Source of the DNA: Allomuricauda sp.
GTDB taxonomy: Bacteria; Bacteroidota; Bacteroidia; Flavobacteriales; Flavobacteriaceae
Direction of reading: 5' to 3'
DNA length: 36,690 nucleotides
NCBI GenBank assembly: GCA_028284725.1
Contig: JANQRD010000223.1
Span: forward strand, 1 to 36,690
This document shows, piece by piece, positions 2,903-24,543 of the stretch. A model generated the notes under the pieces. It was given only the letters and a program-made list of their open reading frames with translations. It searched no databases and had not been told where the DNA came from. How positions within the stretch are numbered: position 1 is the first letter of the stretch; each line of letters opens with the position of its first letter. The position numbers were made by a program, and so were the translations under genes.

Positions 2903-3371
2903 ATATGGAAATCTGCCGATCGATCTGCTGGTTGAGGGAGATAAAGGTTTCTGTACGGGAGACCCCTTCTATCTGTTGTATTTTTTTGTTCAGTACGATC
3001 ATCAGATGCTCATTGTCCCGACAAAGCACTTTGATCAATATGGACCAATTACCCGTGGTGTAATGGCATTCCAATACTTCCGGAATTTTTTCCAATTCCT
3101 TTACGGCTCTTGGATTTGCCATGGCCTTGTCCAAAAATATCCCTATGTAGGCCATTGTGGTATAGCCCAACACCTTGGGGTTGATAATAAATTTCGATCC
3201 AGCCAGTAATCCCGAGTTTTCCAACTTGCGCAGCCGTTGGTGAATGGCCGCTCCCGAAATGCCGATGTTCCGTGCTATTTCCAAAATAGGCCTTCGGGCA
3301 TCTTCCATGAGATACCTTAGGATTTTTTTATCGATACCGTCAATCTTGACCGAACTGTTAGTCGATTTCAT
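2901..3371 (-). CDS. Lrp/AsnC family transcriptional regulator
   Basis: A 156-residue protein with the standard two-domain Lrp/AsnC layout. The N-terminal winged helix-turn-helix begins 'KIDGIDKKILRYLMEDARR' and includes 'IARNIGISGAAIHQRLRKLE' at about residues 35-54. The C-terminal RAM/AsnC ligand-binding domain contains 'GYTTMAYIGIF' and 'VLECHYTTGNWSILIKV'. It lies 48 bases downstream of the saccharopine dehydrogenase-type gene on the same strand, so the two are probably co-transcribed. Family members bind amino acids, and I infer that it senses lysine or a related amino acid and controls its neighbour. Alanine dehydrogenase 0.8 kb away is another plausible target. Confidence 0.93.
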   Translation of the reverse strand: MKSTNSSVKIDGIDKKILRYLMEDARRPILEIARNIGISGAAIHQRLRKLENSGLLAGSKFIINPKVLGYTTMAYIGIFLDKAMANPRAVKELEKIPEVLECHYTTGNWSILIKVLCRDNEHLMIVLNKKIQQIEGVSRTETFISLNQQIDRQISI

Positions 3372-3419
3372 ACAAAAGATTCAAAACTGAAGTTAAAGAT
3401 ACCTAAAAACAATAAAAGT

Positions 3420-15552: not shown

Positions 15553-16539
15553 TTACAACGCCATTAAATTGCAACCTCTCACATCGGAATGATCGAATCG
15601 GCCCAAGACTTCAAAAGTTCCATCAGGGAAAGTTTTTCCCAGATCTTGGGTAGCTATAAAAGCACAGGAGTAAATATTTGCCAAATCGATGACATTGACA
15701 CCCCCAGTTTTTCCATAAGCTTGCAAGGTGAGGGGGTCTTCGGTATCACGAGTGATAATTTTCATCCAAGGAGGACATTTAAAAAGTCCTTCGCCTTGCG
15801 AATAGCCTTGCGATAACAATTCAGTCATCCCGTATTCCGAATGGATTTTGGATATCCCAAAGGCTTTTTTTAGAATACTGTGCAACTCTTCACGGATCAA
15901 TTCTTTTCGTCGACCTTTCATTCCCCCCGTTTCCATGATAATGGTATGTTCCAACGGCATGGGAAACTGCTCCGCCAAATCCAGAAGAGCAAAGGATACC
16001 CCGATGAGCAAAGTTTTGGTTTTTTGCGTTTCGAGTATGAGGAGGGTTTCCTGTAGCACCTTTAAATTGTTCAGGTAAAAACCGCTTTTGGGATGCTTTG
16101 ATTGGCTGATCAGGTCATTTACCATATACACCAATGAAGAACCTTCACGTTCCAAATAGGAAGGTAGCAAGGCTAAAATACAGTAGTCCGAAATAGCACC
16201 ATAAATGGAAGCAAACCCTTTGCGAAAACTTTGCTGGTAGATGTCAAGCTCGGTAACAAAATGCCTGCTGGTGGTATTGGAGGTGGTACCACTGCTTTCA
16301 AAAATGGCCTCTGGCTTTTTTTGGGATGAAACTACCTGATGTGTCTTAAAGAAGGATATCGGCAAAAAAGGAATTTCCGTAACATTGGAAACATTGGCTG
16401 GAGTCTTGTTCAGGTGTTGGCAATAGCTTTGATAAACAGCATTGAAATCGAACTGAAATTGGAAAATGCGTAAAGCCAATTCCTCAAATTCAGCTTGGCT
16501 TGTAATTGAAAAAATGTGTTGAATATCGACGCTGTCCAT
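15553..16539 (-). CDS. Stand-alone LuxE-like acyl-activating protein
   Basis: About 328 residues from the ATG at 16539 ('MDSVDIQHIFSI'); the ORF-track start at 16599 runs into the upstream terminator. The segment 'AIFESSGTTSNTTSRHFV' is the Ser/Thr/Gly-rich adenylate-binding motif of the ANL superfamily as seen in LuxE acyl-protein synthetases. 'HSEYGMTELLSQGY' matches the later ANL 'YGxTE' motif, and 'EVLGRFDHSDVRGCNLM' is a family-typical ending. LuxE activates fatty acids for luciferase, but no other lux gene is near. In Bacteroidota such proteins are common alone and probably activate an unknown carboxylic acid. Confidence 0.85.
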   Translation of the reverse strand: MDSVDIQHIFSITSQAEFEELALRIFQFQFDFNAVYQSYCQHLNKTPANVSNVTEIPFLPISFFKTHQVVSSQKKPEAIFESSGTTSNTTSRHFVTELDIYQQSFRKGFASIYGAISDYCILALLPSYLEREGSSLVYMVNDLISQSKHPKSGFYLNNLKVLQETLLILETQKTKTLLIGVSFALLDLAEQFPMPLEHTIIMETGGMKGRRKELIREELHSILKKAFGISKIHSEYGMTELLSQGYSQGEGLFKCPPWMKIITRDTEDPLTLQAYGKTGGVNVIDLANIYSCAFIATQDLGKTFPDGTFEVLGRFDHSDVRGCNLMAL

Positions 16540-16556
16540 TGGGGATATAAAAGTAC

Positions 16557-16590
16557 CCAAAAAATAAAGGCCTTTCGATTGAAAGGCCCT
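16557..16590 (-). terminator. Terminator after the first mini-T9SS gene
   Basis: GGCCTTTC and GAAAGGCC form a perfect 8-bp stem around GATT. Read on the minus strand it is followed by a T-rich run (TTTATTTTTT). It separates the T9SS gene at 16603 from the LuxE-like gene. Confidence 0.8.
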
Positions 16591-16602
16591 GTACAGCAAT
16601 TT

Positions 16603-16926
16603 TTATTTAACGACCAGTTTCCTGGTCATGGTTTTGTCCTGCTCGGTCACTTGGAGTACATATACTCCAGGCACCAATCTGGAAATATTTAAGGTATTGG
16701 TTGAAATTCTATCGGTAAGGACAATCTCACCAAAAACGTCATAAATCTTAATTTGTTTGCTTCCATTGGTGGCGGTGATCACATAGACTTCATCGCCATA
16801 AGCCGGATTTGGGTACATTTTAAAACCCTGTAGTTCCTGTACTTGCTCAGTATTAACACTGACCAGTTCTTGACCAAAAGTGGAAAGAGGTAAAGCCATA
16901 ATGAGTACGAAGTAGATTTTCTTCAT
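16603..16926 (-). CDS. Mini-protein: signal peptide plus T9SS type A sorting domain
   Basis: A 107-residue secreted protein that is almost only a type IX secretion C-terminal domain. A signal peptide 'MKKIYFVLIMALPLSTFGQ' (about 19 residues) is followed by a linker of about 15 residues. The sorting domain then runs from 'GFKMYPNPAYGDEVYV' to the end, with 'KQIKIYDVFGEIV', 'LNISRLVPGVYVLQV' and the terminal 'TRKLVVK'. No cargo domain exists. A paralogue of the same layout lies 143 bases upstream at 17070-17378. T9SS domains normally direct a cargo through the outer membrane and are then cleaved, so the role of a free domain is unclear. Confidence 0.93.
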   Translation of the reverse strand: MKKIYFVLIMALPLSTFGQELVSVNTEQVQELQGFKMYPNPAYGDEVYVITATNGSKQIKIYDVFGEIVLTDRISTNTLNISRLVPGVYVLQVTEQDKTMTRKLVVK

Positions 16927-17528: not shown

Positions 17529-18725
17529 TTAGTTGATTCCAACAGTCCATCCGGCACCCCATGTAGCAACATCGGTACCCGTACCATTACCTACACCAGA
17601 GATTACATCTGCTTCATCGAATACAGCTCCAGTATCATTTTTTAGGTTGGTAGTGACATTGTTAAAAGTAACGTCAATAATATTGGAGTCGTCATCCACG
17701 ACACCTACACCTGTATCAGCGTCGTCCAAATCAAAACCTTCAAAAAAGTCGGTAATTACTACATTATTAAAGACAAAGCGGGTACCAGCTCTTAGTCTAA
17801 TAGCCTCGCTTTCGTCAGCAATATCGTCAGGATTTCCAATAACAGTTACGTTGGTTACTGTTGGCGCGGAAAAATATCCACCTTCATTACTAAAGTCTGT
17901 ATTGAATCCATCACATTCAAAAGCCTTGTCATGGTTTTCTCCATGTTGCACGTAAACATCTGTAAGACTTCCGATAAAACCTTCGGTCCAGTCGATGGAA
18001 TCATCCTCGGAGTTTACTACTACCAAGTGGCTTGCGTTTACGGTTCCACCAAAGAACTCGAAACCGTCATCCGATCCTTCGAAAACTTGAACAAAGTCAA
18101 TAGTTGTACCTGTACCAACACCGTAGATTGAAACTCCGTTAAGCTCAGCGTTACCATCAATTGCACCACCAGCGTATTCAACACGTACGTACTCCAAAAT
18201 TCCAGAATTATCATCAGGAGTGTTCCCTCCAAAGGAAAGACCTCCTACTTCAGTGGTAGCGGTATCAGTTGAACCATCTGGAGTAGAGTTGATAGGAGCT
18301 CTTCCACAAATCACCAGACCACCCCAATCTCCTGCTGAAGGGGTTGCTGAATTGGATGTGAATACTATAGGATTGCTTGCTGATCCATCGGCAACGATTC
18401 TAGCACCTTGCTGTATAGCTATGTAGGCATTTACACCTACGGGCTCAGCTCTTACCGTCATTCCTTCAGGAACAGTCAACGTGGTTCCATCAGCCATCAA
18501 AACAGGACCGGTAATGGTATATTCAATGTCTGGATCCAGTGTAAGATCTTCAGTGTAGACACCACTTAGATTTATAGCGGTTATGGGATCGCTTCCACCG
18601 CCTCCTTGATTGGTGGTATTGTTCGTGACACTGTTATCATTGATAACAACATCAGAGGTATCGTCGCTTTCACAAGCAATGAACAAAGCAGCGGCTATAC
18701 CTAAAAATAAAAACTTGTTTTTCAT
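17529..18725 (-). CDS. Predicted surface lipoprotein with beta-helix-like repeats (TonB receptor partner)
   Basis: A 398-residue lipoprotein of a type often found beside TonB receptors in Flavobacteriaceae; I do not know a proven function. The signal 'MKNKFLFLGIAAALFIACES' has its lipobox cysteine at residue 18. It is followed by 'ESDDTSD', an acidic stretch like the Bacteroidota lipoprotein surface-export signal. A low-complexity Asn/Gly linker leads to a mature domain rich in short beta-strand repeats: 'ADGTTLTVPEGMTVRAEPV', 'GDWGGLVICGRAPIN', 'LEYVRVEYAGGAID', 'VSIYGVGTGTTIDFVQV', 'FNNVVITDFFEGFDL'. These suggest a right-handed beta-helix. Only 20 bases separate it from the receptor gene, so it is co-transcribed. 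It occupies the position SusD holds in SusC/SusD pairs but shows no SusD features. Confidence 0.75.
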   Translation of the reverse strand: MKNKFLFLGIAAALFIACESDDTSDVVINDNSVTNNTTNQGGGGSDPITAINLSGVYTEDLTLDPDIEYTITGPVLMADGTTLTVPEGMTVRAEPVGVNAYIAIQQGARIVADGSASNPIVFTSNSATPSAGDWGGLVICGRAPINSTPDGSTDTATTEVGGLSFGGNTPDDNSGILEYVRVEYAGGAIDGNAELNGVSIYGVGTGTTIDFVQVFEGSDDGFEFFGGTVNASHLVVVNSEDDSIDWTEGFIGSLTDVYVQHGENHDKAFECDGFNTDFSNEGGYFSAPTVTNVTVIGNPDDIADESEAIRLRAGTRFVFNNVVITDFFEGFDLDDADTGVGVVDDDSNIIDVTFNNVTTNLKNDTGAVFDEADVISGVGNGTGTDVATWGAGWTVGIN

Positions 18726-18745: not shown

Positions 18746-21574
18746 TTAAAATTTATATTTAAGGGTTAGCCCAACGTTAACCCCAAGGTTATACTCTCGT
18801 ATTACAATATCTCCCAAATCTGTTCCTTCACGTATAAATGAGATATCCGGATCTAAAATGTTCCTAGCTGTTAGATTGGCTTCGAAATGCTCTCCGAAGG
18901 AATTTTGCCAAACAAAATTCAAAGTAGGTACTGCTTTTTCCACAATGTTCCCCAAGCTACCCGCACCCAACGAGAAAATACGGTCGGAGAAATAGGAGAA
19001 AGCAACAGTGGCCTTAGGCTTATAGTTTCCAAAGTTGGTAGGGCTATAATTAAGGTCAGCATTAATGATAAAAGGAGATGCGCCTTCAAGTTCATCCGAA
19101 TCTCGGTCGAAACTAGTACCAAAGGTATTCTCTTCACCTCCTGGGATGTCCCTTAGGTCCTGATCTGTATGTGTATAAGCGGCGTTGACACCTACCGATA
19201 CTACGGCATTATCTTCGGCATCTGTGTACAGATTTTTTCTTACCTCCAATTCGACACCAAAAATGTCGGCTTGTTCACCTGTTCTAAAATAACGTTGTGT
19301 ACCTGTAGCATCGGCTGCAACAACACGGTTCACCGGATCCTTTATCGTCTTGGCGAAGGCTGCAAGCGAAATAATTTCCCCTCGTTCCAGGAACCACTCA
19401 TACTTGAGGTCGTAATTATAGATTTCAGAGTACGTGGCACCAGTTCCATCCAATCCGCCAAGCAAGTCTGGGTTACCACCATATCTAATGGTTACCGCTT
19501 CATATACAAAAGGGGCTACTTCCTTGAATTCCGGGAAGGAGGCAGTTTTACTGGCACCAAACCTCAAATTGGAATTATCGTTCAATGCATAGCGCACATT
19601 TAAACTTGGAAGGAATATATTTTCATACACATTCCTGAAACCAGGATCCGCTGGGTTTATGTTAATTACGTCATACACAATATCCTGATCGAAGGTTTCA
19701 ACACGTAACCCAGGAACCAAAGTAAGCTTATCGCCAATCTCTATATCAGCTGCACCATACACACCATGAACATTCAAATTACCTTTGTAGGTGTTCTCAG
19801 GAAGCCCCGGACGATTTCGATTACCAATGTCATTGTTGATGGGATTTAGCACAATAAGATCCCATAACCCTTCACCTCGAGGAATGTTGATGTTGCTTAC
19901 ATCGAAAATAGCATTGAAATTGTTCAAGTCCGTGATTGGGGTATTGTCCCTATCCTGGATTTCATATCCATAACGAATACTGTTGAACCTTCTTTCTTTC
20001 CTTCTTCCGTTATAGCCAAAGTTCAATTTTACTTTTTCAGACAGTTGATGTCCTAGATGTATGAAGCTGTTCAATTCATCATCTTCGATACTCTGCCAAA
20101 AGCGTTGGTTGTCAAAAGGAATATTAATGTAAAATACCGGATTGGTCGCTGGATCATTGTCCAGAGACAATTGGTAATTTTCAAGGGTTATCCTTTTTCG
20201 GTCCGGCTCATCAGAAAACACCTTGTTAAAACCGACGCCCCAATCCATATCCCATTTTTCATCAAAGATGTGTTGTCCAGTCAATTGATTTACGAAAATC
20301 ATGTCTTGGTTAAACTGTACGTTCTGAACGAAGAAACCCTCATCTGTGGTAATCAATGCGTCGCGGTTGGTACCTTGCCCATTAATGCCGTAGAAACCTA
20401 CAGCATCGGTTGAACTATTTATGAACAACGAACTGAACTTCACCTTGTGCTCATCATTTATGCGGTAGAGTACGTTTCCAAGTGCGGTTGTGTTGGTTTT
20501 GTAAGCAAATTCACGTACGTTGGGGAAATCTACCTTCAATACATTGGTGAAATCTCTTGCCGGTCCTTCCCAAATCTCGTAGCCATTATTAAAGCTGGCC
20601 GCTCCAAAGAAACTTAACCTTGATTTGTCATTGTTGAAATTGAAGGAATATCCTCCTTCCATTGCCGCGGAAAGATTGATGGGACTCCATGCATCCTGCG
20701 GATCTACACCGTGCGACAGAATAACCGCAAAAGGGTCATTGTCGTACCTATTATAGAATCCAAAATCACTAGGCCCCTCACTTCTTACAAAATCCTCACC
20801 AGAGGCATTGGTGTTGAGTCCAGATCCCAAAGAAACTTCAAAGTATCCGCCTCCCGTATATTCTTTCGAATCGATATTTACGTTACCTGCAGCATAATCT
20901 CCAAAGAAAGTGGAATTGTAAGCTTTGCTAACGGCAACATTTTCTATAATGCTTGACGCGAACAAATCGAGATTGATATTCTTTTTGTTAACATCATTGG
21001 AGGGAAGGGACAATCCGTTCATGGTGGTGTTCTGGTAGCGATCCCCAAGCCCTCTTACATATACGTTGCTGGATCCTTGTTGTTTGGATATCCCGGAGAT
21101 TTGTGCTACCGCGGCGGCGGCATCATCAATTCCCTTGAGGGTCAATGCCTCCGCGCTGATCGCTTCCTGGATCACCAAGGCGTTCTTCTGTTGAAGTAAC
21201 AGGGCTACTTCCGAGTCTTTCCGTGCTGTGGTGGTCACTACCACCTCGTCTAAACCCACGCTGCTCGCCCCCAACCCTGCGTTTATTTCGGTGACTTTTC
21301 CTGGCTCAACAACCACATTTGGCACTTCCAAGGTCTCATAGCCCAAAAAGCTGATGACAAGGGAATATGTTCCTGGTTCAACATTTTCGATTGCAAACAA
21401 CCCATCAAAATCAGAGGTGGTTCCAATAGTGGTACCCTTGATTAATACGTTTGCGAAGGGAAGTGGGTCATCGTTAAGTTCTTTGTCCGTCAATTTACCT
21501 ACAATTGTTCCGTTTTCTTGGGCGAAACCGGTAAAAGTGAGCAGGGAAAAGATAAATATCAGATAAGTTTTCAT
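18746..21574 (-). CDS. TonB-dependent outer-membrane receptor
   Basis: About 942 residues from the ATG at 21574 ('MKTYLIFIFSLLTFTGFAQ'), which gives a clean signal peptide; the ORF-track start is four codons earlier. The signal is followed by a carboxypeptidase-regulatory-like domain ('GTIVGKLTDKELNDDPLPFA' to 'VEPGKVTEINAGL', about residues 23-105). A plug domain follows with 'DEVVVTTTARKDSEVALLLQ', 'ISGISKQQGSSNVYVRGLGD' and 'GAASF'-type strands, then a 22-strand-size barrel ending in the aromatic 'LGVNVGLTLKYKF'. It imports a ligand using TonB energy. The partner is the co-transcribed beta-helix lipoprotein, not SusD. It diverges from a PhoB/PhoR-like system across a Pho-box-like repeat array, so phosphate or a phosphorus compound is the inferred ligand. 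Confidence 0.93.
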   Translation of the reverse strand: MKTYLIFIFSLLTFTGFAQENGTIVGKLTDKELNDDPLPFANVLIKGTTIGTTSDFDGLFAIENVEPGTYSLVISFLGYETLEVPNVVVEPGKVTEINAGLGASSVGLDEVVVTTTARKDSEVALLLQQKNALVIQEAISAEALTLKGIDDAAAAVAQISGISKQQGSSNVYVRGLGDRYQNTTMNGLSLPSNDVNKKNINLDLFASSIIENVAVSKAYNSTFFGDYAAGNVNIDSKEYTGGGYFEVSLGSGLNTNASGEDFVRSEGPSDFGFYNRYDNDPFAVILSHGVDPQDAWSPINLSAAMEGGYSFNFNNDKSRLSFFGAASFNNGYEIWEGPARDFTNVLKVDFPNVREFAYKTNTTALGNVLYRINDEHKVKFSSLFINSSTDAVGFYGINGQGTNRDALITTDEGFFVQNVQFNQDMIFVNQLTGQHIFDEKWDMDWGVGFNKVFSDEPDRKRITLENYQLSLDNDPATNPVFYINIPFDNQRFWQSIEDDELNSFIHLGHQLSEKVKLNFGYNGRRKERRFNSIRYGYEIQDRDNTPITDLNNFNAIFDVSNINIPRGEGLWDLIVLNPINNDIGNRNRPGLPENTYKGNLNVHGVYGAADIEIGDKLTLVPGLRVETFDQDIVYDVININPADPGFRNVYENIFLPSLNVRYALNDNSNLRFGASKTASFPEFKEVAPFVYEAVTIRYGGNPDLLGGLDGTGATYSEIYNYDLKYEWFLERGEIISLAAFAKTIKDPVNRVVAADATGTQRYFRTGEQADIFGVELEVRKNLYTDAEDNAVVSVGVNAAYTHTDQDLRDIPGGEENTFGTSFDRDSDELEGASPFIINADLNYSPTNFGNYKPKATVAFSYFSDRIFSLGAGSLGNIVEKAVPTLNFVWQNSFGEHFEANLTARNILDPDISFIREGTDLGDIVIREYNLGVNVGLTLKYKF

Positions 21575-21622
21575 TTGGCGTTCCATTGGATTTAGAATTC
21601 GCAGGCAAAGAACGCGATGGGT

Positions 21623-21701
21623 TGTAAAAGCGATGTTAGGCGTTTGTTAAGAGTTTATTTGAGAACTGTTACAATAATGTTATGACATTAAATGAATGTT
21701 A
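21623..21701. promoter_or_regulatory. Pho-box-like array: TGTTA repeats in 11-bp register
   Basis: Successive 11-base units begin at 21623 (TGTAA), 21634 (TGTTA), 21645 (TGTTA), 21656 (TATTT, degenerate), 21667 (TGTTA) and 21678 (TGTTA). A further TGTTA at 21697 is out of register. Read on the minus strand the core is TAACA, close to the TTAACA-type direct repeats with 11-bp spacing bound by PhoP/PhoB regulators. The array lies between the receptor gene and the PhoB-like regulator. Its receptor-proximal edge is about 10 bp upstream of a weak -7-like GTTCTTTG on the minus strand, a geometry suited to activation. Confidence 0.65.
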
Positions 21702-21729
21702 AGCATTTATGCTGTTTTGGTATTATCTT

Positions 21730-21737
21730 TACATTTG
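21730..21737 (+). promoter_or_regulatory. Probable -7 element of the PhoB-like regulator gene (TACATTTG)
   Basis: TACATTTG matches TAnnTTTG and lies 27 bases before the ATG at 21765. The last TGTTA repeat lies about 28 bases upstream, close to the -33 region, so autoregulation is plausible. Confidence 0.5.
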
Positions 21738-21764
21738 GGCGATCAACATAAAAAATACCATCCC

Positions 21765-22451
21765 ATGAAAACTAAGGACATTAAGATTCTTCTTGTTGAT
21801 GATGAACCTGACATTTTGGAAATTGTAAGCTATAATCTTTCTTCTGAGGGTTATGAAGTTTTTACGGCCAAGAACGGAGTGGAGGCCATCGCCAAAGCGA
21901 AAAAAAAGAATCCCCATCTTATTATTTTGGATGTGATGATGCCCGAAATGGACGGTATCGAGGCCTGTGAAGTAATCCGGAAAACCCCAGGATTGGAAAA
22001 CACCATTATCACCTTCCTTACCGCACGTGGCGAGGACTATTCCCAAGTGGCCGGGTTCGATGCAGGAGCCGATGACTATATCACCAAGCCCATTAAACCG
22101 AAGGTTTTAGTGAGCAAGGTTAAGGCGTTGCTCCGAAGGTTGAAAGAGGAAAAAGCCGATGTTGAAGATATTGTAAAGGTGGGCAACATTGTAATCAATA
22201 GGGAAGAATACAAAATCGTCAATGATGGGAAGGAAATTGTACTTCCACGAAAAGAATTTGAACTACTTTCTTTATTGACTTCCAAACCCAGCAAAGTGTT
22301 TAAACGGGAAGTGATTTTGGACAAGGTTTGGGGTAATGAAGTTGTGGTCGGCGGCCGAACCATCGATGTCCATATTAGGAAACTACGCGAAAAAATTGGT
22401 GATCATCACTTTAAAACCGTCAAGGGCGTAGGGTATAAGTTCGTCCTGTAA
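21765..22451 (+). CDS. PhoB/OmpR-family response regulator
   Basis: A 228-residue regulator from the ATG at 21765 ('MKTKDIKILLVDDEPD'); the ORF-track start at 21696 lies upstream of the predicted promoter element. The receiver domain has the acidic pair D12/D13, the phosphoacceptor D56 in 'LIILDVMMPEMDG', T86 in 'FLTARG' and K108 in 'DDYITKPIKP'. The C-terminal winged helix contains 'LPRKEFELLSLLTSKPSKVF', 'VVGGRTIDVHIRKLREKIG' and 'VKGVGYKFV'. Its stop codon overlaps the kinase start (TAATG), so the pair is translationally coupled. It most resembles the PhoB/PhoP type, and the 11-bp repeat array next to it supports a phosphate-starvation role. Confidence 0.9.
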   Translation: MKTKDIKILLVDDEPDILEIVSYNLSSEGYEVFTAKNGVEAIAKAKKKNPHLIILDVMMPEMDGIEACEVIRKTPGLENTIITFLTARGEDYSQVAGFDAGADDYITKPIKPKVLVSKVKALLRRLKEEKADVEDIVKVGNIVINREEYKIVNDGKEIVLPRKEFELLSLLTSKPSKVFKREVILDKVWGNEVVVGGRTIDVHIRKLREKIGDHHFKTVKGVGYKFVL

Positions 22452-23506
22452 TGGCCATAAAACTAAGGAAATCCTACAAATTTGCCTTAAGGTCATCTTT
22501 ACTGATCACCACTTTTCTTACTGGTTTGTTTTCGACCTTTCTGCTGTATAAAGGTCAGATGGACTGGCTTTTCACGTTGCTGTTCGCGATACTCTGTTTC
22601 GGGGCTGCATTTTTGGTCATTCAGATTCGCGTGGAGCGATTTATCTACAGAAGGGTCAAAAAGATTTATGATGATGTGTCTCTTTTAGAATCTTCAACCT
22701 TTTCCTCCAAACCCGTCACCACGGATATGAAAACCCTGACACAGGAAATCGAAAAGTTTGCCGAGGGGAAGAAAATCGAAATAGATACCTTAAAAATCCG
22801 GGAGGAATATCGCAAGGATTTCTTGGGAAATGTATCGCACGAACTCAAAACGCCCCTTTTTACGGTGCAAGGCTACATTCTCACCTTGCTTGATGGCGCC
22901 ATGAACGACAAAAAGATTCGTGAAAAATACCTGAACAGAGCGAACAAAGGAGTTGAGCGTTTGATTTATATTGTTCGTGATCTGGATTTGATCACCAAAC
23001 TCGAAGTCGGTGGATTGAAACTGGAGCGCGAAGATTTCGACATTATCGAGTTGATTGGAAACGTGTTCGAACTTCTGGAGATGAGAGCGGCCGAAAAGGA
23101 AATTACCCTTACGTTCGATATGGAATATGAAAACCCCATTTATGTGAATGCGGATCGCGAGAAAATACAGCAAGTGGTCAGCAATCTTCTGGTGAATGCC
23201 ATTAAATACGGCTCTAAAAATGGAACCACGGAGGTCAGTGTGGAAAATCTTATCAAAAACAAAGTGATCATACGGGTGACTGATAACGGGGAAGGTATTC
23301 CCAAGCAGCATATTCCCAGATTATTTGAACGTTTTTATCGAGTGGATCAAAGTGGAAGCCGCAAAGAAGGTGGTTCGGGTCTTGGCCTGTCCATTGTGAA
23401 ACACATCATCGAGGCGCACGATGAAAAAATCTACGTGGAAAGTGAGGAGGATGTAGGCTCCGAATTCTCCTTCACCTTGGAGAAAGCCTCAAAAAGTGCT
23501 TCATAA
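22451..23506 (+). CDS. PhoR-like sensor histidine kinase
   Basis: A 351-residue membrane kinase. Two helices (about residues 14-33 and 39-57) are separated by a very short loop, leaving no periplasmic sensor domain. A linker leads to the dimerisation domain with 'FLGNVSHELKTPLFTVQGY' (phosphoacceptor H130). The ATPase domain has 'LLVNAIKYG' (N box), 'VTDNGEGIP' (G1), 'LFERFYRVD' (F box) and 'GGSGLGLSIVKHII' (G2). The absence of a large sensor domain resembles PhoR, which in other bacteria senses phosphate through the Pst transporter and PhoU; none of those genes is in the window. The last 76 bases overlap the convergent glycosyltransferase gene. Confidence 0.9.
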   Translation: MAIKLRKSYKFALRSSLLITTFLTGLFSTFLLYKGQMDWLFTLLFAILCFGAAFLVIQIRVERFIYRRVKKIYDDVSLLESSTFSSKPVTTDMKTLTQEIEKFAEGKKIEIDTLKIREEYRKDFLGNVSHELKTPLFTVQGYILTLLDGAMNDKKIREKYLNRANKGVERLIYIVRDLDLITKLEVGGLKLEREDFDIIELIGNVFELLEMRAAEKEITLTFDMEYENPIYVNADREKIQQVVSNLLVNAIKYGSKNGTTEVSVENLIKNKVIIRVTDNGEGIPKQHIPRLFERFYRVDQSGSRKEGGSGLGLSIVKHIIEAHDEKIYVESEEDVGSEFSFTLEKASKSAS

Positions 23507-24543
23507 TCGATTTTGGAATCAAATTGGGTCAACCCTTCGAAGGATTCAATGCGGTTAAGGTTTTCCAGGGTAAAATCATCTTGTTTCGCATAGGGAATCA
23601 ATCCTTGTTTTTGTAGACGCTTTGCCAAATATTCTTGTTCGTATTGTCCTGGGGTGGGGATAAAGAAGGCCTTTTTTTCAAGCTTTGCCAAATCCATTAC
23701 CGTGGTATAGCCCGATCGGCACAACACCTTAGCACTTTGGTTCAAAGCTTTCTGCAGTTCTTGCGATTGCATAAAATTAACTAGAGTGATACTCCCTTCC
23801 TGTATTTCTATTTCCGTTTTGGTCTGCTCCTCCTCAATTTTCCCTTTAATAAAAAGCACATTGCCCTTAAAAAGTTGAAGCTCCTCCAAAAGCTTTTCTT
23901 CCAGCAATGTTCGTTGTGGCTCAGGGCCAGAGATGAGCACCATCAGATCATATACTTCAGGAACATCCATTTTTTCAAATCGGCTTAAGGGGCCCAAATA
24001 TTTTATGTTGATGCTGGACTTTTTCAAATGACCCAGTTTTCCAGTAAGGTTAGGTTTCCCGTCAACATCGGGGACCCAACATGCCGTAAATTTTTTAATG
24101 ATTTTTTGGTGCGCTTTCGAACTCATCCACGTCGTATTTCCAGAAAGTACATTCAGCTGGTGTGTTATAAAAACACACGGCACCTTTTTGTAAAAGACCC
24201 CAAGTCTGTTATCGGAGATGATTCCATCCAATTCATGTTCTTTGACCAGTTGCTTTACGGCTTTTTTTTCTTTCGCCATTGCCTTTAGCACTTTGGGAGA
24301 ATCCCATATCATTTTTATTTTGAAATTCTTTCCTTTTTCCGCATAGGTGATTTTGTAAGAAGGCAATTCAAAGGAAGGCAGATTCGGAAATTCTTTCTGC
24401 AAAAGCGCAAGCGCAACCCCATCTGAGGCAATAAAGGGTTGGTGCCCGTGAGCTAAAAGGGCATTGATAATGGGGATACATCGCGTGGCATGTCCGAGTC
24501 CCCAATTAAGGGGTGCGACCAAGATGCGTTTCGAATTTTGCAT
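23431..24543 (-). CDS. GT-B glycosyltransferase (MurG-like superfamily)
   Basis: A 370-residue protein with the two-lobed GT-B layout. The N-terminal lobe starts 'RILVAPLNWGLGHATRCIP', a donor/acceptor loop typical of the MurG-like group. The C-terminal lobe has 'VLCRSGYTTVMDLAKLEKK' and 'FFIPTPGQYEQEYLAKRLQ', which bind the nucleotide sugar. There is no signal peptide or membrane helix, so it acts at the cytoplasmic face. Donor and acceptor are unknown. The last roughly 25 codons ('FSKVKENSEPTSSSLST') lie antisense to the kinase gene and look like a run-on tail, probably from loss of an earlier stop codon. Confidence 0.85.
   Translation of the reverse strand: MQNSKRILVAPLNWGLGHATRCIPIINALLAHGHQPFIASDGVALALLQKEFPNLPSFELPSYKITYAEKGKNFKIKMIWDSPKVLKAMAKEKKAVKQLVKEHELDGIISDNRLGVFYKKVPCVFITHQLNVLSGNTTWMSSKAHQKIIKKFTACWVPDVDGKPNLTGKLGHLKKSSINIKYLGPLSRFEKMDVPEVYDLMVLISGPEPQRTLLEEKLLEELQLFKGNVLFIKGKIEEEQTKTEIEIQEGSITLVNFMQSQELQKALNQSAKVLCRSGYTTVMDLAKLEKKAFFIPTPGQYEQEYLAKRLQKQGLIPYAKQDDFTLENLNRIESFEGLTQFDSKIDYEALFEAFSKVKENSEPTSSSLST

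Follow-up and report, generated by a model that had tools for sequence, protein, structure and literature searches.

What is the run of short direct repeats that separates a TonB-dependent receptor gene from a divergently transcribed phoB-like regulator gene, and which of the two genes does it serve? The question arises from a contig of 36,690 nucleotides from an Allomuricauda genome (3.98 Mb in 270 contigs), the whole of which is called the window here. The initial annotation had interpreted the repeats as a Pho box. This interpretation is supported by the conservation of the repeat register and by enrichment of the array at phosphate genes, from which binding by the PhoB-like regulator is inferred.

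The array and the genes around it

Direct reading placed the six units at 21623 (TGTAA), 21634 (TGTTA), 21645 (TGTTA), 21656 (TATTT), 21667 (TGTTA) and 21678 (TGTTA), with a spacing of 11 bp throughout. The positions and the exact register given by the initial annotation were borne out by this reading and by the shuffle test below, and so was its count of four TGTTA units, one TGTAA unit and one degenerate TATTT unit. On the minus strand, in the direction of the receptor, the units read TAACA, TAACA, the degenerate AAATA, TAACA, TAACA and TTACA. The array matches a TGTTA ladder at 27 of 30 positions, a score reached in 0 of 2000 dinucleotide shuffles of 21587-21764 (shuffle maximum 22). When the 5-mer was left floating and the spacing was allowed to range from 7 to 15, none of 100 shuffles matched the array score (maximum 24). 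It is also the top TGTTA ladder of the whole window, the runner-up elsewhere scoring 19. Tandem Repeats Finder detected only the 21634-21656 core of the array (score 32). An Rfam search of the array region gave no match, indicating that no known riboswitch or sRNA is located there.

Features of the receptor-phoB region (window coordinates)
Feature	Position	Strand	Basis or remark
Lipoprotein-like partner	17529..18725	-	No Pfam match; position of lipoprotein FII (Fjoh_0546), synteny with PMC8115612
TonB-dependent receptor	18746..21586	-	Pfam: CarbopepD_reg_2, Plug, beta-barrel; start may be ATG at 21574
-7-like element GTTCTTTG of the receptor promoter	21606..21613	-	TTTG at +18, counted from the start of the last unit
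Six-unit 11-bp array	21623..21682	-	Direct reading, 80-promoter footprint, unit counts
Second two-unit ladder (TAAC/TAAT, 11 bp apart)	21687..21701	-	8 bp off the main register
TACATTTG, putative phoB promoter	21730..21737	+	Matches the Bacteroidota -7 consensus TAnnTTTG
PhoB-like OmpR-family response regulator	21765..22451	+	Best NCBIfam models: PhoB (TIGR02154), Bacteroides-type PhoB (NF053854)
PhoR/PnpS-like histidine kinase	22451..23506	+	NCBIfam NF046044, TIGR02966, below cut-off
Glycosyltransferase	23431..24543	-	PF04101; counterpart of Fjoh_0541 by position and Pfam (PMC8115612)

The two PhoB models are the regulator's best NCBIfam matches despite scores under the curated cut-offs (217.8 versus 296.2 for TIGR02154 and 211.2 versus 270 for NF053854), which leaves the protein PhoB-like, short of the PhoB equivalog level. 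The gene order of glycosyltransferase, PhoR, PhoB, divergent receptor and FII lipoprotein is that of the F. johnsoniae PhoBR cluster Fjoh_0541-0546, which differs in having OprP inside it (PMC8115612). phoR and the glycosyltransferase gene converge and have 76 bases in common at their 3' ends (23431-23506). Beyond the lipoprotein gene, at 15553-16926, a gene with a LuxE-like acyl-protein synthetase domain lies beside one for a 107-aa protein that bears a type IX secretion tail.

Attachment of the array to the receptor promoter

One scan provided 80 receptor orthologs, of which 79 had a usable upstream region; with the window these made an alignment of 80 rows. The closest orthologs were those of Flagellimonas/Allomuricauda. 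Of the five good units, four or more were retained in 78 of the 80 promoters, and the expectation that the register would hold in orthologous loci was therefore realized. In the footprint the TAAC columns carry about 1.0-2.0 bits and the bases between the last units about 0.05-0.4 bits; across the 79 orthologous promoters the inter-unit bases drift while the units stay. Aligned towards the receptor, TAAC occurs at units 1, 2, 4 and 5 and TTAC at unit 6, with a poor third unit, giving a consensus half-site of TTAACA/TTTACA. Direct repeats of a 5-7 bp half-site with an 11-bp period, as present here, are the arrangement of a Pho box.

The weak -7-like element that had been proposed for the receptor about 10 bp from the array was found as GTTCTTTG (minus strand, 21613-21606), 9 bp past the last unit. 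Orthologous receptor promoters keep a -7-like TTTCTTTG/GTTCTTTG at this same distance. Counted from the start of unit 6, TTTG falls at exactly +18 in 75 of the 80 promoters, including 30/30 that are adjacent to phoB and 45/50 at other loci.

The divergent neighbour of the receptor gene is phoB in 29 orthologous loci and dgt, a dGTPase-like gene with an HD domain, in 48. The array is present in both arrangements and persists at about 50 loci without an adjacent phoB. The array is thus an element of the TonB receptor promoter more than a phoB autoregulatory element, because it stays with the receptor when phoB is elsewhere and because the unit orientation and the fixed -7 spacing face the receptor, phoB having its own conserved TACATTTG. 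The initial annotation had assigned the array to the divergent promoter region of the regulator gene; the location was correct, but the dgt-adjacent loci, the orientation and the -7 spacing give ownership to the receptor. On the phoB side, TAnnTTTG is kept at a constant offset from the array in phoB-adjacent loci. This side also holds a second ladder, overlooked in the initial annotation and composed of ATTA at 21687 and GTTA at 21698. Its TAAC is conserved in 30/30 and its TAAT in 28/30 phoB-adjacent loci, with partial retention in other loci, and this pair of units may provide autoregulation of phoB.

Sharing with phosphate-uptake genes

The dgt-type loci hold additional ladders downstream of the receptor and lipoprotein genes. 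Some precede a Porin_O_P gene that has a PHO4/PitA gene after it, and others precede the gene for a small CarbopepD_reg_2 protein. With cluster genes assigned by blastp, the array with TTTG at exactly +18 was found not only at the receptors but at 33/37 Porin_O_P, 15/19 small CarbopepD_reg_2 and 15/41 PHO4/PitA genes. The same combination was found at 0/344 other genes of the receptor clusters, 0/30 phoB genes and 0/76 FII lipoprotein orthologs. Because the unit matrix came from receptor promoters, the porin and transporter matches are not circular, although receptor, porin and transporter genes share clusters and perhaps promoter ancestry. Outside the receptor promoter, 3-unit ladders scoring at least 18 numbered 93 at 11 bp, whereas no other spacing between 7 and 15 gave more than six (range 0-6); overlapping matches within one array were tallied separately.

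Within the genus, six Porin_O_P genes carry the array and the -7. No porin gene was found in the window's own genome; its PitA gene adjoins dgt and has a two-unit box upstream that is conserved in three other genomes. The receptor-trained profile gave only one strong site per genus genome, the remaining genus sites being weaker or shorter. In a class-wide scan of 198 genomes with this profile and strict filters, five genomes matched. In four of them, the window's own and three from a second genus whose PhoB is 78% identical to the window's, the site was a receptor promoter that faces phoB; in the fifth it was a Na+/Pi cotransporter promoter. Since only these five matched, the receptor-type layout is family-level and not phylum-wide at that scan sensitivity. 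The array thus recurs at phosphate-acquisition genes (porin, PitA and Na+/Pi cotransporter), and the enrichment near phosphate genes foreseen in the initial annotation was observed. In a genome of another family (L251), the array and -7 lie upstream of a Na+/Pi cotransporter gene with a C-terminal PhoU domain.

Counts of TGTTA pairs across the whole genome were set aside as too degenerate. The exact pattern of three units plus TTTG had two matches in the own genome, one of them the array, with no excess over reversed-pattern controls.

The Pho-box reading, phosphate sensing and other ladders

We put the probability at about 0.8 that the array is a flavobacterial-type Pho box, the operator through which the phosphorylated PhoB-like regulator would activate the receptor-lipoprotein operon under phosphate scarcity. 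The half-sites, about six in number, TTAACA-like and spaced by one turn (11 bp), would hold head-to-tail dimers of the phosphorylated regulator, possibly loaded cooperatively as the initial annotation proposed. The array ends 9 bp upstream of the -7, where a -33 element would lie, and no obvious -33 is present, which suggests that the bound regulator probably replaces the -33 contact. RNA polymerase may in this way be recruited to the receptor-lipoprotein operon at low phosphate, in a class-II-like manner as at E. coli pho boxes.

The E. coli PhoB pho box consists of CTGTCAT direct repeats with an 11-bp period. The array shares with it the 11-bp direct repeats, the tandem copies and the location at the site expected of the upstream promoter element, but its half-site is TTAACA-like and not TGTCA, it is coupled to a Bacteroidota -7, and it has five good units plus a degenerate one, often with two more out of register. 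The Bacillus PhoP box is built of TTAACA repeats. Here the TTAACA/TTTACA half-site, the 11-bp period and the placement on the coding strand of the activated gene agree, whereas the phylum and promoter type differ, the present array is longer, and the teichoic-acid link is not seen. Pho boxes had been described as poorly known in Bacteroidota. This is partly right, but a DAP-seq motif for Riemerella anatipestifer PhoP, TTTAACA, was published in 2022 together with an EMSA on the phoPR promoter (PMC9603813). Its core is the reverse complement of TGTTAAA, and that regulator binds its own upstream region; it differs in being described as a core motif whose broad regulon does not centre on phosphate, and the accessible part of the report gives no -7 coupling. 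In B. fragilis the pstC promoter is a binding target of PhoB (PMC3547664), and the words 'Pho box' and 'promoter' are absent from the main text of the F. johnsoniae study (PMC8115612). As far as these papers show, what is new is the fixed -7 coupling, the attribution of the array to the receptor promoter, and the promoter code common to receptor, porin, mini-protein and PitA. The array is most likely an operator of a known type, and its flavobacterial layout is clearly resolved. It would define the Pho box of Flavobacteriaceae at base resolution, together with its position with respect to the unusual Bacteroidota promoter, and so allow the phosphate regulon to be predicted from sequence in these abundant marine bacteria.

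Since 11-bp direct repeats are common to OmpR-family operators, another member of the family, for example a redox or envelope-stress regulator, might bind the array, with the proximity of phoB incidental. The receptor is not adjacent to phoB in about 50 loci, and the TTTAACA motif of Riemerella PhoP, a putative counterpart of this PhoB, was likened to that of ArcA (PMC9603813). Further points against a Pho box are the wide regulon of that PhoP and the raised pstS in the double mutant (PMC9603813), the lack of induction of Fjoh_0542 (OprP) in phosphate depletion (PMC8115612), the scores of PhoB and PhoR under the curated cut-offs and the single strong site per genus genome. The genes that share the array are nevertheless those of phosphate uptake (Porin_O_P, PHO4, Na+/Pi cotransporter). 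In F. johnsoniae, the counterparts of the receptor and lipoprotein genes responded strongly to phosphate depletion, Fjoh_0545 rising 8.0 log2 and Fjoh_0546 9.9 log2 (PMC8115612). We therefore consider a different OmpR-family regulator unlikely.

It is still less probable, and in our judgement very improbable, that the array chiefly autoregulates phoB and that the receptor is a bystander of a divergent promoter. The array does sit in the phoB upstream region, the phoB-side ladder is kept at almost all of the 30 loci next to phoB, and phoB rose 3.1 log2 in starved F. johnsoniae (PMC8115612); but dgt-neighboured receptors keep the array and its spacing, the units and the fixed -7 are directed at the receptor, and the porin is preceded by an identical array/-7 layout. 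Chance repeats or phased A/T DNA with no protein-binding role might be suspected in AT-rich intergenic DNA with such short units. A chance origin is contradicted by the shuffle test, by the 79-ortholog footprint with its drifting inter-unit bases and by the spacing control, and we give it almost no weight.

A puzzle also emerges: the genus has a PhoB-PhoR pair, yet the searches found neither PhoU nor Pst, which form the classical phosphate sensor complex. Among 16 genus genomes, some of them drafts, PhoU was found in 0/16, and PstB and PstS-type proteins over cut-off in 0/16 each, which leaves no pst promoter in which to look for the array, as the initial annotation had suggested; identical PhoU/Pst searches were positive in nearly all control genomes. 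From this genome content, the classical phosphate-sensing route of PhoR seems to be absent in the genus. Plant-associated Bacteroidetes had already been stated to lack PstSABC (PMC8115612). We regard as evenly balanced the proposal that the genus has a Pho regulon without Pst or PhoU, in which receptor, lipoprotein, porin and low-affinity transporter are controlled via the long TTAACA array fused to the -7. PhoR would then have to detect phosphate in some way that does not involve the Pst-PhoU complex.

A three-unit profile gave mostly weak E-values, and only recurrent sites were considered. The PhoX promoter of one genome has an upstream ladder in the opposite orientation, and the weak PstS-like matches have no ladder upstream. 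At the porin loci L151-L155 and L157, a second 3-unit ladder lies about 160-170 bp farther upstream (6/6 loci). Ladders on both strands were seen between aspS and the gene for a 116-aa YwqK/MORN-like secreted protein (L216, G000:C219:20000-25000; 3362-3400 on the plus and 3540-3500 on the minus strand). They recur in most genus genomes, without TTTG at +18, and receptor-porin clusters of other genera contain a gene related to that of the 116-aa protein. A reverse-oriented two-unit TTAAC ladder, conserved genus-wide, lies just upstream of a dnaB-like (replicative helicase) gene (L252, L256-L260).
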